From a virus: DNA of 27,516 bases. Within the stretch, counting starts at the first letter, position 1. Each line of letters starts with the position of its first letter. The translations under genes and the position numbers were made by a program. Shown piece by piece: positions 614 through 20,891 of the stretch. A model generated the notes under the pieces. It was not told where the DNA came from, searched no databases, and worked only from the letters and a program-made list of their open reading frames with translations. The stretch spans positions 1 to 27,516 of IMG/VR virus record IMGVR_UViG_3300045922_000557. The stretch is one strand, 5' to 3'.

Positions 614-1270
614 CTAATCTAAACGGACAAAACCAACAATCAGGGCGATGCCGGTGATGTCATCGTGGTGAATGAGGAAGGGCGAAAAGTCCGGGTTGTC
701 TGACACACATATATAAGTATTGTCCGTTTGGCCCGGATTGAGCCTTTTGATGATGATGCCCTGCTCTCTGGTGGCGATCAGGTGTGCCTTGCCCCATTGG
801 ATGAAGCTCGGATTGCGGATGATGCGGCAGGCCACAATGTCGCCGCTCATGTAAGCAGGAGCCATGCTGTTGCCCTTCACGCGGAGCATGAAATGGATGT
901 CGCTGAAGTCGGGCACTATATAGGTCTGCACGATGTCGCTCTCGGCGATCTTAAAGTCTGCGCTGCCTATGCCGCCGATGGCTTCCACCGCCACCAAGGG
1001 GATGCCGCCCTGAGCAGGCTTGGCCGGTTTATGCTCCTTTTCTGTTATGAGCATTTCGCCTTGACCTGTTAATAACCATTCAGTATTTACATCTGAATAC
1101 ATGGTTACAATAGTTGCCAATGTTTCGGAGCTTAATGCTTTATCCTTTGCCTTTCCCTTGAAATTGCCGTAGGTTGAGCCAATTTGTTCAAAAAACCTTT
1201 CCTTAGAAATGCCTTTTTTTGAAGCAATCTCAAGCACACGTTCCTTTATGTTAGTAACTTTAGTTTCCAT
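614..1270 (-). CDS. S24/LexA-like phage repressor
   Basis: This 218-residue protein is the likely lysogeny repressor. The N-terminal 70 or so residues form a helical DNA-binding region. A linker rich in Lys and Pro follows, then a C-terminal S24 (LexA-type) serine peptidase fold. The catalytic Ser is S135 in VKGNSMAP and the likely catalytic Lys is K175 in GIIIKRLNP. Family knowledge says such repressors dimerise and may self-cleave when RecA is activated. The usual Ala-Gly cleavage site is not obvious; the nearest candidate is AIGGIG at 97-102. The gene faces away from the small HTH gene at 1319, the standard Mu-type repressor/Ner arrangement, with under 50 bp between starts. The protein probably represses the rightward early promoter at 1274-1306. 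Confidence 0.9.
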   Translation of the reverse strand: METKVTNIKERVLEIASKKGISKERFFEQIGSTYGNFKGKAKDKALSSETLATIVTMYSDVNTEWLLTGQGEMLITEKEHKPAKPAQGGIPLVAVEAIGGIGSADFKIAESDIVQTYIVPDFSDIHFMLRVKGNSMAPAYMSGDIVACRIIRNPSFIQWGKAHLIATREQGIIIKRLNPGQTDNTYICVSDNPDFSPFLIHHDDITGIALIVGFVRLD

Positions 1271-2451: not shown

Positions 2452-4413
2452 ATGATTATCCACAACGGCATATTGTGCATCTCCATAGCTCCGCTCGCAG
2501 CGGCAGGCATTCTCAAGCCTACCGTGAGAAAGGATGGTAAGGTGACTTATGAGTTATGGAAGAAATGGGCCAAAAGAGCCAAGACATTGGGCTATTATTA
2601 TCAGCCGGGCGGCAATGGCCGCGAGAGCCTGATAGAGTATGCTGCCGTGCCAGAAAGGTATCAGCGCAGCATCGAAGAGCGCATCGGCAATCCACACAAG
2701 CAGGGCAAGCTCAAAGCCTTCACCGATTACATAGAGCGCGACAAAGCCGCCGAAGATTATTACCGAGATTATCGCTATGGCGAGAATGATGAACTCTCGC
2801 TGCCGCTGCGATTGATCAAGACCTATACGGCCAATGCCGAAGTGCTCAATGCCATCCGCACCATATACAACAATCGCCTGGCATCGCGCAAAAAGATGGG
2901 CGGCTCTATGCGTTCCTTCTGGCAGGATGTGATCGACCCGGTAAATCAATGCAAAGCAACCATCGGGCACAAGCTCCCTGGCACACACCTGCGATTGAAA
3001 GTGGTGTACGAAGAGTACATCTCCGGCAGCTATGCATCACTCATCAGCGGCAAGCTGGGCAATAAGAACACCGAGAAGATCACACCGGAGATCGAAGCCT
3101 GGATCGTGAGCGAAATGGCAAGCACCCGCCAGTCGATTGAAATGGTGTATTTAAAGTATCTTCAAGAGGCTTTTAAACGCTCTTGGAGAACCGATATTGA
3201 AGCTGCTGCCTTCCGCCATCGGGTATCACAACCGCGTGTGCAGCAACTCATAGACCTTGCCCGACATGGCCGCAAGGGATTGCGCAAGCTCCACGGCCAC
3301 AGCTTCAAGCTGCGCAAGGCCAAATATGCCAACGATATATGGGTGAGCGATGGCACTACCTTAGACCTTTACTTCCGCCGCGATGATGGCACAGTGGGCC
3401 TGGCTTCGATGTATGCCGTGATGGACTCCATGAGTTGCAAGATGCTCGGCTGGGCCACCACACCATACATGAATAAGGAAAACAACGAAGTGCAGCTCAG
3501 CGCCTACCGCATGGCGCTGCGCAATGCCAATGCCTTGCCTTATCAGTTGAAATACGACAATCAGAAGGGCCATAAGACCCAAGTGTCGCAGGACTTCTAC
3601 AAGCGATTGGCCACCGTTCATTTCCCATCAAAGCCTTACCGCCCATCTGCCAAGCGCATAGAGTTTGCCTTTGGCAAGTTCCAAAGCCTGAAGCTGTCTG
3701 AATTTCCTTTCTGGGCTGGCTTTGGCCGCACCACCTGGAGCGATGTGAACCATGCTCCTAACATGGACTGGATCAATGCCCATAAGGATGAACTGCCAAG
3801 CTACAAGGAACTGGTGCAACTCTTCGAGATCATCATAGCCGAGTGGAACGACCTGGACTTCTCCGGCAAAGGCAGCCCTAATAAGCTCTATGCCGAAAAC
3901 CGCAATCCCGAAGAGCAGCCCTTGGATGTGCAGGACTTGATGGACTTGTTTTGGAACATCAAAGGCCCGGTGAAGTACCACGCCCACGGCATCACCCTGC
4001 ATCATAACAATGAGCAGTTTCTTTATGAAGTGTATGATCACTTAGGCAATGTGGACTATAACTTCCGCCGCAAGTATCTGCACCAGGGCCTATTTATCAA
4101 GTATGACCCTGACATGGAATATACCGAAATAGAGCTGTATGTGAAAGATGCCGGAACCGATCTGCGCCATGTGGCCACCGCCAAGCCTAAGCGCGATGTG
4201 TCGGAGTCGGTGAAATATCTCAACGACGATGACCGCGCCTGGATCGAAAAGCAGATGAAGCTCGAAGAGCAGATGATGGACACAATGGAAGCCGAACTGG
4301 TGAGCATTGGTTATGACGAACATGCCAAGGCTACCCGCTGGCGCGAAAGATTAAAACAGCCTGCTGCGGTGTCGCACGATGATGACGACAGCGACTGGCG
4401 CAAAAAAATATAG
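2452..4413 (+). CDS. MuA-like DDE transposase
   Basis: This 653-residue protein is the phage transposase, which would cut and join the prophage ends during integration and replicative transposition. The N-terminal ~290 residues carry helical DNA-binding regions. The rve/RNase H-like core follows, with D300 (VSDGTT), D369 (LKYDNQKGH) and E404 (SAKRIEFAF) as the DDE triad; the spacing fits MuA-type enzymes. A beta-rich domain (about 500-580) and a charged, acidic C-terminus follow; in MuA the C-terminal region contacts MuB and ClpX. The length is close to MuA (663). The start at 2452 is the first ATG after a hairpin at 2387-2427. The MuB-like ATPase lies 56 bp downstream. Confidence 0.93.
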   Translation: MIIHNGILCISIAPLAAAGILKPTVRKDGKVTYELWKKWAKRAKTLGYYYQPGGNGRESLIEYAAVPERYQRSIEERIGNPHKQGKLKAFTDYIERDKAAEDYYRDYRYGENDELSLPLRLIKTYTANAEVLNAIRTIYNNRLASRKKMGGSMRSFWQDVIDPVNQCKATIGHKLPGTHLRLKVVYEEYISGSYASLISGKLGNKNTEKITPEIEAWIVSEMASTRQSIEMVYLKYLQEAFKRSWRTDIEAAAFRHRVSQPRVQQLIDLARHGRKGLRKLHGHSFKLRKAKYANDIWVSDGTTLDLYFRRDDGTVGLASMYAVMDSMSCKMLGWATTPYMNKENNEVQLSAYRMALRNANALPYQLKYDNQKGHKTQVSQDFYKRLATVHFPSKPYRPSAKRIEFAFGKFQSLKLSEFPFWAGFGRTTWSDVNHAPNMDWINAHKDELPSYKELVQLFEIIIAEWNDLDFSGKGSPNKLYAENRNPEEQPLDVQDLMDLFWNIKGPVKYHAHGITLHHNNEQFLYEVYDHLGNVDYNFRRKYLHQGLFIKYDPDMEYTEIELYVKDAGTDLRHVATAKPKRDVSESVKYLNDDDRAWIEKQMKLEEQMMDTMEAELVSIGYDEHAKATRWRERLKQPAAVSHDDDDSDWRKKI

Positions 4414-9359: not shown

Positions 9360-9599
9360 ATGAAAAACAAATTAGCAGACCCTTTACGGTATAACACACT
9401 GACCGAACAAGAAAAGCAAGAGATTGATGCTATAAACTATTCCCAAATGCTAAAGATGTGGCGACACGCTCCATCAGAAGCACGAGTATCGCTTTTCTCT
9501 GGTGATTGTGGAAAGTACTTCGCCAAAGTGATGTCAGAAAAGAAAGCCAAACTCGCACCCAGTGAAGCTGTGAGCATTAGTAAGATGGTGGGGTGGTGA
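9360..9599 (+). CDS. Small hypothetical protein, 79 aa
   Basis: I prefer the ATG at 9360 over an upstream GTG at 9291 because the upstream part is Lys/Asn-rich and lacks a ribosome site. The 79-residue protein is basic and helical, unrecognised, with a SEARVSLFSGDCGKYFAKVM centre. Codon use is more AT-rich than in the early operon. It is the last gene before the antirepressor module. Confidence 0.55.
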   Translation: MKNKLADPLRYNTLTEQEKQEIDAINYSQMLKMWRHAPSEARVSLFSGDCGKYFAKVMSEKKAKLAPSEAVSISKMVGW

Positions 9600-9635
9600 T
9601 GAACCAACACCTGTTAATAACTCACCCAACTACCC

Positions 9636-9669
9636 TTTGTTCTTTAAATAAAAATTATATGTATGTTTG
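9636..9669 (+). promoter_or_regulatory. Promoter of the antirepressor leader RNA
   Basis: TTTG at 9636-9639 and TATGTTTG at 9662-9669 are 22 nt apart and match the Bacteroidota promoter form. The start would fall near 9673-9676, exactly at the 5' arm of the structured leader described next. This supports a separate transcript for the antirepressor module. Confidence 0.65.
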
Positions 9670-9672
9670 TCG

Positions 9673-9810
9673 TGCTAGAAATACTCGGATAATATCCGAA
9701 ACATTTTATTAACGATAGTCGCTGCCCATGGGTAGCAGAACCGAAAGGCTGCCAGTCTTATTCTCTGAGTAATTCTAGCAACCCTAAAGGCAGCGGCGCA
9801 TACATCTTTT
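9673..9810 (+). ncRNA. C4-like structured leader / antisense RNA
   Basis: The 5' arm TGCTAGAAATACTC (9673-9686) pairs with GAGTAATTCTAGCA (9767-9780) except for one mismatch, closing an RNA of about 108 nt. Inside are a CGGAT/ATCCG hairpin (9686-9698), a GCTGCC/GGTAGC hairpin (9721-9736) and a CC-GAAA-GG tetraloop hairpin (9735-9752). GCTGCC and GGCAGC blocks at 9721, 9748 and 9789 allow alternative pairing. The 3' arm TTCTAGCA (9773-9780) is equally complementary to TGCTAGAA at 9817-9824, which includes the antirepressor start codon. P1/P7 C4 RNA blocks ant translation in a similar way. I see no sequence identity to C4, so C4-like is a structural and positional call. Confidence 0.6.
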
Positions 9811-9815
9811 CGACA

Positions 9816-10535
9816 ATGCTAGAAAAAAAGAATGTAAGCACCAGAGTGAACAATAGTAACTCTAATGCAATGAGTGGCTCACAAAACGAGCTAATTCCAA
9901 TTTCTCAAAAGGATGACCAATTACTTGTTAATGCAAGAGATTTGCATAGAAGATTGAAAATTGGTAAAGATTTTTCAACATGGATTAAAGACCGTATTAA
10001 AGAATATGGTTTTCATCCAGATTTAGACTTTAGTATTGTTTCCCCAAATTTGGGGAGCAAGTTTCCAAAACATGGTGGTCAAAACAAAAAGGAATACTTT
10101 CTCACTCTGGACACCGCCAAGGAACTTGCCATGTTGGAGCGCAACGAAATGGGTAGGCTCATTCGCCGCTATTTCATAGAAGCGGAAAAACAGCTGCGCA
10201 GCAAAAGGCTCTATGCACAGGTGGCAAACATCACCGACATAAGTAAAAGAGTGGGGCATCAGCGGCTCAATGGGCGCAAGATGTATGTGCTCCGTGAGCT
10301 TAGAGCATACCTTGGTTATAGCACTAAATCTAGCACAAGCAATGTGCATCGCAACTACCCTGGTCAGATTGTTACCTTCAATGGTTTGGCTTATGTGAGC
10401 GAAGAGTATGTGAAAGTGCTGATGAGTTCAGCAACTACCAGGGCTTTGAAAGTGGAAGCACAAGCAGCTCCACCATTGCTGCCTGTTGGTTTTGGTCAAC
10501 CTTTGAGTTTATTCCCAGAAGGAGGTATTTCATGA
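9816..10535 (+). CDS. AntA/AntB-type antirepressor
   Basis: A 239-residue protein. Residues 25-125 form an AntA/AntB domain: LLVNARDLHRRLKIGKDFST, then WIKDRI, the YFLTLDTAKELAML motif and LIRRYFIEAEKQLR. The C-terminal half (about 130-210) looks like a second, DNA- or protein-binding module. AntA-type proteins antagonise the prophage repressor, so the target here is presumably the S24 repressor at 614-1270. The start codon can be masked by the leader RNA just upstream. No clear ribosome site precedes it. The end overlaps the ATG of the next gene, and a perfect AAGGAGGT lies inside its last codons. Confidence 0.88.
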   Translation: MLEKKNVSTRVNNSNSNAMSGSQNELIPISQKDDQLLVNARDLHRRLKIGKDFSTWIKDRIKEYGFHPDLDFSIVSPNLGSKFPKHGGQNKKEYFLTLDTAKELAMLERNEMGRLIRRYFIEAEKQLRSKRLYAQVANITDISKRVGHQRLNGRKMYVLRELRAYLGYSTKSSTSNVHRNYPGQIVTFNGLAYVSEEYVKVLMSSATTRALKVEAQAAPPLLPVGFGQPLSLFPEGGIS

Positions 10536-10758
10536 GCCATACTGCAATTGAAAAAAACTGGATGCTTACTTCAAGCAAGATATGCCGCCACGCGATGTAG
10601 CTTGCAGGCTTCGCTCGGCATTTGTGCAATTGAGCCTAATGATGGCTAAGTTTTCACCAGAGAGTGGCAAAATAACTTATGTGGGCGATATAGAAGAAAC
10701 ACTCTACACCCTGCATGAACTTGCCGAACTCATAGACCCGCCCGATGAGAAATGTTAA
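10532..10758 (+). CDS. Small gene read through slippery A AAA AAC
   Basis: The start ATG at 10532 follows a perfect AAGGAGGT ribosome site and overlaps the antirepressor stop. The direct frame stops after 22 codons (TAG at 10598). At 10552-10558 the frame reads A AAA AAC, a canonical -1 slippery heptamer. After a -1 slip the frame stays open to TAA at 10756-10758. It would give about 75 residues, with LDAYFKQDMPPRDVACRLRS after the slip and a helical acidic end. Either this is programmed frameshifting, or an inactivating or assembly indel in the A-run. Family unknown. Confidence 0.6.
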
Positions 10759-20806: not shown

Positions 20807-20891
20807 TGCGTGGTGGAGTCCCGATAGCTATCGGGATGAGCTCGTCAGGTTCATACCCTGAAGGCCGCAGGTTCGAGTCCTGCCATCGCTA
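20807..20891 (+). tRNA. tRNA-Met(CAT)-like gene with palindromic D-loop
   Basis: The layout aligns with initiator-type tRNA: acceptor 5' TGCGTGG (20807-20813), TG, D-stem GAG.../GCTC, anticodon stem TCAGG/CCTGA with loop TTCATAC (anticodon CAT, 20852-20854), variable AGGCC, T-arm GCAGG-TTCGAGT-CCTGC (20867-20883), and 3' acceptor CATCGCT. The acceptor stem has only four good pairs of seven. The D-loop contains the 18-bp palindrome TCCCGATAGCTATCGGGA (20819-20836) instead of the usual about 8 nt. No CCA is encoded. It is probably a degenerate or chimeric tRNA; function is uncertain. Confidence 0.5.
20819..20836. repeat. 18-bp perfect palindrome
   Basis: TCCCGATAGCTATCGGGA equals its own reverse complement. 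I recall this word as frequent in Bacteroidota genomes, but could not check it here. It occurs once in this window, inside the tRNA-like element. Confidence 0.85.

Follow-up and report, generated by a model that had tools for sequence, protein, structure and literature searches.

A C4-type antisense leader probably controls the AntA antirepressor of a Mu-like phage

The window, by which we mean the whole 27.5-kb stretch of viral DNA analysed here (one virus record), carries a leader at 9673-9838 that is probably a C4-type antisense control unit for an AntA antirepressor in a Mu-like phage. Judged by its sequence, the leader RNA is related, though distantly, to C4, the antisense RNA of phages P1 and P7. 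An earlier, sequence-only reading of this DNA had recognised a C4-like logic, and this stands: it agrees with the antirepressor context, with a pairing that would mask where AntA starts and with the co-variation, among relatives, of the two alternative pairings. The same reading had seen no sequence relation to C4, which proved wrong, as the c4-2 model of the C4 clan matches 9717-9800 from end to end.

Results

The window is a transposable phage with an AntA antirepressor

The window encodes a Mu-type transposase (2452-4413) and a transposition protein as well as portal, terminase and tail-sheath genes; together with a repressor gene, these identify it as a transposable (Mu-like) phage. Its host most likely belongs to the Bacteroidota, to judge from the promoter type and the relatives of the leader. 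We infer that the S24-type repressor (614-1270) is the likely interaction partner of the AntA antirepressor. The features discussed below are as follows.

614-1270, minus strand: S24-type repressor gene (Pfam Peptidase_S24, E 9e-11)
9662-9669, plus strand: Bacteroidota -7 box TATGTTTG, fitting TAnnTTTG and identical to the box of relative L347
9673-9694, plus strand: target copy 1 (a1 9673-9680, b1 from 9682), expected at the extreme 5' end of the transcript
9717-9800, plus strand: c4-2-like RNA (Rfam RF02944, 39.9 bits, full length)
Helices of the c4-2-like RNA: P1 9718-9726/9789-9797; P1b 9730-9733/9781-9784; P2 with a GAAA loop 9735-9752; P3 about 9755-9771
9758-9780, plus strand: antisense segment, with b' in P3 (9758-9770) and a' TTCTAGCA (9773-9780), complementary to both target copies
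9817-9838, plus strand: target copy 2 (a2 9817-9824, b2 about 9829-9838), overlapping the AntA start codon at 9816-9818
9816-10535, plus strand: AntA antirepressor gene, 239 aa (Pfam AntA PF08346, E 1e-24; PHROG anti-repressor Ant, E 9e-43)
10532-10758, plus strand: small gene whose start overlaps the antA stop (ATGA, 10532-10535)

Later in-frame starts of antA at 9846 and 9870 are possible; the closest relative, L347, has a sole ATG near the start, which favours 9816. The reading frame of the small gene behind antA switches at A AAA AAC (10552-10558), a heptamer shaped like a -1 slippery site; this may reflect a programmed -1 shift, a mutation, or an assembly or sequencing error. A profile of the 77-aa proteins encoded at chromosomal c4-2 loci, searched against 5470 frames and shuffles, found frame 10552-10755 as its sole match in the window (E 2.4e-4; next 0.61). 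No such small ORF was found after antA in other AntA loci.

Searches with the window transposase recovered no relatives, and c4-2 was absent among the terminase relatives, where one search was weak because its prefilter missed the window too. The sole contig with an identical terminase (L027) appears to stop before the leader. A tRNA model match of 32.1 bits lies between structural genes at 20832-20891; its 60 bases are short for a tRNA.

The leader contains a divergent c4-2 RNA

Within 9500-10000 (501 bases, searched with sensitive settings) the c4-2 family RF02944, a member of the C4 clan CL00128, matches over model positions 1-79 of 79 with E 3.9e-7. Its 39.9 bits fall 1.1 short of the curated gathering cut-off of 41, at which a scan misses the window RNA. 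The C4 model itself (RF01695) is not the best-scoring one; c4-2 tops the clan, for which only the best member is reported. There was no match to c4-a1b1 (RF03163) in 9500-10000 up to E 10, despite the complementary target copies present there. An independent covariance model built from 27 Bacteroidota c4-2 sequences, with the window left out, scored the window RNA at 27.8 bits, its sole match in 534 kb of mostly related phage sequence.

Co-variation supports the family fold well, with 90% of cells paired, double changes in 24 of 25 pairs and none of 500 shuffles its equal. Compared with the commonest c4-2 pair, the window RNA carries a double change in 14 of its 20 standard pairs, so that compensatory changes are present in the helices it has in common with c4-2; nine of ten P1 positions are paired. 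No U-run follows the RNA in the window. The repeated GCTGCC, GGTAGC and GGCAGC blocks pointed out in the sequence-only reading do exist, but instead of offering further switch pairings they are the P1 and P1b/P2 strands of this fold.

Two copies of the target flank the RNA

The promoter that had been placed as ending at 9669 agrees with the -7 box, which is promoter-like by sequence; TTTG at 9638-9641 could be an upstream element. From there the order is promoter box, target copy 1, c4-2-like RNA, target copy 2 over the AUG, and antA. The long stem proposed between 9673-9686 and 9767-9780 pairs at 13 of 14 positions, with a single A-A mismatch (9681/9772), and the helix continues to 9689. Equally, the claimed second pairing of the 3' arm was found: a' can pair at every position with 9817-9824, where the AntA start codon lies. 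The element TGCTAGAA occurs exactly twice in the whole window (9673 and 9817) and its complement TTCTAGCA just once (9773); such an arrangement of an 8-mer, its reverse complement and the 8-mer again arose in 18 of 20,000 dinucleotide shuffles of 9670-9830. By sequence, the 5' arm is a second copy of the c4-2 target, like a1b1 of P1.

Target copy 1 forms a duplex of -24.2 kcal/mol with 9758-9781, a value reached by none of 52 mismatched upstream regions and none of 200 shuffles. The duplex with target copy 2 (-16.9 kcal/mol) likewise beats 52 of 52 mismatched downstream regions, with 14 of 200 shuffles as good. The RNA fold of the leader outdoes 200 of 200 shuffles (z -4.0). Among nested structures, for which pseudoknots lie outside the model, the 5' stem reaches -44.3 kcal/mol, the c4-2 fold -48.6 and the minimum free energy structure -49.6, which puts the 5' stem behind both others; pairing of the start region by itself yields far less in cis (-29.5). 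Target copy 1 could also pair with the c4-2 loop as a pseudoknot. Owing to the stability of the c4-2 fold, full-length co-folding brought hardly any gain.

Related AntA leaders co-vary and share the layout

The check that the sequence-only reading had proposed, covariation of both pairings in relatives, came out positive: the antisense co-varies with both targets. The closest relative, L347, has an AntA 47% identical to the window's and shares with the window the box TATGTTTG, the linker TTAACGATAG and the ACCGAAAGGC hairpin. Its antisense reads GTCTGACA, and a' differs from that of the window at three positions; each of the three is matched by a compensating change in a1 and by another in a2 (one a G-U pair). 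In L347 the frame opens at 1056, and the sole ATG close to its start is at 1068, which locates the target at the start codon. Two further relatives (L349 and L350) have c4-2-like RNAs ahead of antA; a model built with the window among its sequences gives them 37.9 and 39.2 bits, and with Rfam the L350 RNA scores 35.8 bits.

Other AntA leaders follow the same logic with different RNAs, namely L346 (1291-1464), L414 (1346-1518), L436 (128-300), L440 (1334-1515) and L359 (1295-1470). In all five a box and a target are followed by a complementary, structured RNA resembling a hairpin with a terminal U-run and by a target near or over the ATG; in the first four this second target lies over the ATG. 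The leaders of L346 and L414 had no relevant Rfam match. A recurrent leader RNA with AACCCCGT and TATAATG motifs, again with two-copy target logic, was seen in L433 (about 134-310), L434 (about 1296-1460) and L411 (about 1306-1480). In L389, sRNA-Xcc1 (RF02221, 65.7 bits, 1366-1455) lies directly upstream of the AntA gene and has a 9-nt pattern of X, its reverse complement and X; it may be another C4-type antisense RNA. In L367 (1280-1478), C4, c4-a1b1 and isrK matches occur together upstream of an AntA gene. This cluster, with the isrK-like match that overlaps a1b1 in P1, suggests that IsrK and a1b1 are related.

We assembled an unselected set of 12 AntA leaders, comprising the window, the single AntA found in sampled Bacteroidota genomes and ten phage AntA proteins that match over most of their length. 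With fixed windows, their own pairings beat 100,000 of 100,000 permutations at both start and upstream regions; the effect is collective, and single loci, the window included, do not always rank first. By eye the pattern is present in nine of the ten phage relatives, some with sequence-unrelated RNAs; L348 is without it, and L434 is the least clear. A fixed-threshold scan for triple complementarity across all AntA leaders gave no separation from control genes because of GC content, and was replaced by the fixed windows and permutations; an earlier permutation test was discarded, its windows having taken in the P1 stem. A duplex matrix that includes L347 used hand-chosen segments from partly selected loci and is illustrative.

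Chromosomal c4-2 loci have the same architecture

A genome pattern scan and two family searches yielded 54 c4-2 matches for analysis. All pairing tests used 53 loci, 22 of them non-redundant, with L219 omitted as below the cut-off. The matches fall in Bacteroidota, mostly Flavobacteria, with up to eight copies per genome. Most of the loci consist of a TAnnTTTG box, a few bases, a target (TCCTAAA and a variable stretch), about 30 nt, c4-2 and the same target once more, immediately ahead of a small gene's ATG (about 74-105 aa), and about 50 Bacteroidota loci share the window's order of target, c4-2, target. The box stands a few bases before the first target in 37 of the 53 loci, against 14 of 5500 shuffles.

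The antisense part of c4-2 fits the two targets of its own locus over those of others, with none of 20,000 permutations reaching the observed energies. This locus-specific fit is strong evidence from sequence comparison that c4-2 is an antisense RNA directed at the beginning of the gene that follows.

Several Flavobacterium loci, L115 and L081 among them, are stand-alone cassettes of promoter, target, c4-2, target and 77-aa gene amid ordinary chromosomal genes, several per genome. The c4-2 of L063 lies near a filamentous-phage-type replication gene (PF05144). In viral contigs the canonical c4-2 pattern had one true case (L291); a pattern scan of viral contigs with the window's motifs returned coding chance matches only. 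In some Flavobacterium loci an ORF of the leader spans c4-2; it was not conserved and was dropped.

Discussion

We can now propose how this leader might work. Transcription from one promoter would yield a transcript with target copy 1 first, then the c4-2-like RNA, then target copy 2 at the AntA start. In P1 and P7, C4 is processed by RNase P to about 77 nt and acts in trans; by homology, the main activity of the c4-2 domain would be that of an antisense RNA set free from the transcript. Freed by processing, it would pair through b' and a' with target 2 and cover the AUG (9816-9818), so that no antirepressor would be made and the S24 repressor would keep the prophage silent. Genes of Bacteroidota phages often have no Shine-Dalgarno sequence, and a block at the AUG itself, suggested by the position of the target, is reasonable where the host does not rely on one. 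More speculatively, target 1 may pair with the antisense segment in cis as a decoy, leaving the uncut transcript inactive until its 5' part is removed; as copy 1 pairs better than copy 2 (-24.2 against -16.9 kcal/mol), it may keep the antisense strand of the nascent transcript occupied up to the cut. Counting against a C4-type unit are the score under the cut-off, the modest duplex at the start region, the negligible gain in full-length co-folding, the lack of a terminal U-run, the possible later starts of antA and the fact that the P1 target is not the ant AUG.

The sequence-only reading had pictured a single leader that either folds on itself or masks the start. Its two alternative pairings hold up; the single-leader picture is probably incomplete, c4-2 being a separately folded antisense domain. 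In its strict form, an uncut leader would toggle in cis between the c4-2 fold, the 5' stem and start masking, and no separate antisense RNA would be released. The three segments do lie on one transcript, and the 5' stem and c4-2 fold are only about 4 kcal/mol apart. We nevertheless consider a purely cis-acting switch unlikely: c4-2 keeps its separate fold across the family, the start region pairs only weakly in cis, and the nearest homologues with data, the C4 RNAs of P1 and P7, are processed and act in trans (PMC5320573; review PMC12197685).

Pairing with copy 1 or copy 2 might instead stop transcription before antA, as proposed for the CI RNA of P4, which pairs with sites on both its sides (PMC4825925). 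A weak terminator-like hairpin at 9685-9699 and a U-run just after P1 in several relatives would suit such a mechanism. The missing U-run behind c4-2 in the window does not, and target 2 sits on the start codon; the position of the targets at start codons in nearly all relatives points to translation, and we regard early termination as quite improbable. That the resemblance arose by chance, without function, is hardly credible, given the family match, the independent model, the concerted changes in L347 and the common layout, set against a match slightly under the Rfam cut-off and the few shuffled leaders that reproduce the triple 8-mer.

With C4-type antisense control as the preferred reading, lysogeny control of this kind extends from the enterobacterial phages P1 and P7 to a Mu-like phage, whose host is probably a member of the Bacteroidota, and to another antirepressor family. 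The findings also suggest a function for c4-2, classed in Rfam simply as an sRNA. Because the loop co-varies, locus by locus, with the targets on either side, the antisense model can be put to the test in Flavobacterium strains that grow in culture, and whether the upstream a1b1 copy is a decoy, a timer or an activator is a question that simple mutants can address. Tentatively, C4-type control might be a general solution for AntA antirepressors, reached through several sequence-unrelated RNAs (c4-2-like RNAs, unclassified U-run hairpins, an AACCCCG class and perhaps sRNA-Xcc1), with an antisense that covers the AUG and a decoy at the transcript start in Bacteroidota phages.

C4 with a1b1 and a2b2 is already known as a kind: in the P1 record C4 is annotated with putative a1 and b1 sites on its upstream side and a2 and b2 sites on its downstream side, and, as a control, Rfam found C4 and c4-a1b1 in P1 with the settings used for the window. 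The two-copy architecture is thus known, and the window adds one case. As far as could be checked, what is new is the phage type and probable host phylum, an AntA gene whose AUG falls within the pairing, the co-variation support for c4-2 as an antisense RNA, and the use of several different RNAs alike by AntA genes; we claim no priority on c4-2 itself.

The RNA of the window resembles c4-2 (RF02944) in its full-length model match, three-stem fold, GAAA loop and AG.A..CCCUAAA segment, and in the promoter box and two target copies, a feature of the family recognised here. It differs in a', usually GTAGGA and here TTCTAGCA, and in scoring below the curated cut-off; at chromosomal c4-2 loci the target immediately precedes the AUG of a small gene, whereas the window target overlaps the AUG of an antirepressor. 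The sar RNA of P22 has its own promoter opposite the ant leader and no known flanking target copies, so that its origin and layout differ from those of the window RNA. Like the window RNA in its proposed role, it works by antisense and keeps translation of the antirepressor from starting (PMC12197685). IsrK of Gifsy-1 (orf45-anrP) and the CI RNA of P4 (seqA/seqC) also lie between upstream and downstream complementary sequences and control an antirepressor or replication operon (PMC4825925); IsrK differs in activating in trans and P4 CI in acting through termination, and the window had no Rfam match to either family.

The closest parallel in organisation is P1/P7 C4 (RF01695, with c4-a1b1 RF03163). 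There, too, a1 b1, the RNA, a2 b2 and an antirepressor operon follow one another, the RNA is encoded ahead of the antirepressor on the same strand, its antisense segments are complementary to the leader, and the antisense occupies P3 and the joining strand before CAACCC. P1 differs in its target, which is the leader and ribosome-binding site of icd, the gene preceding ant, and not the ant AUG, and in its sigma-70 promoters and host phylum. Moreover, P1 Ant1, with its ANT/KilAC domain, shows no detectable similarity to the AntA of the window, so that C4-type RNAs would control unrelated antirepressors in the two phages.
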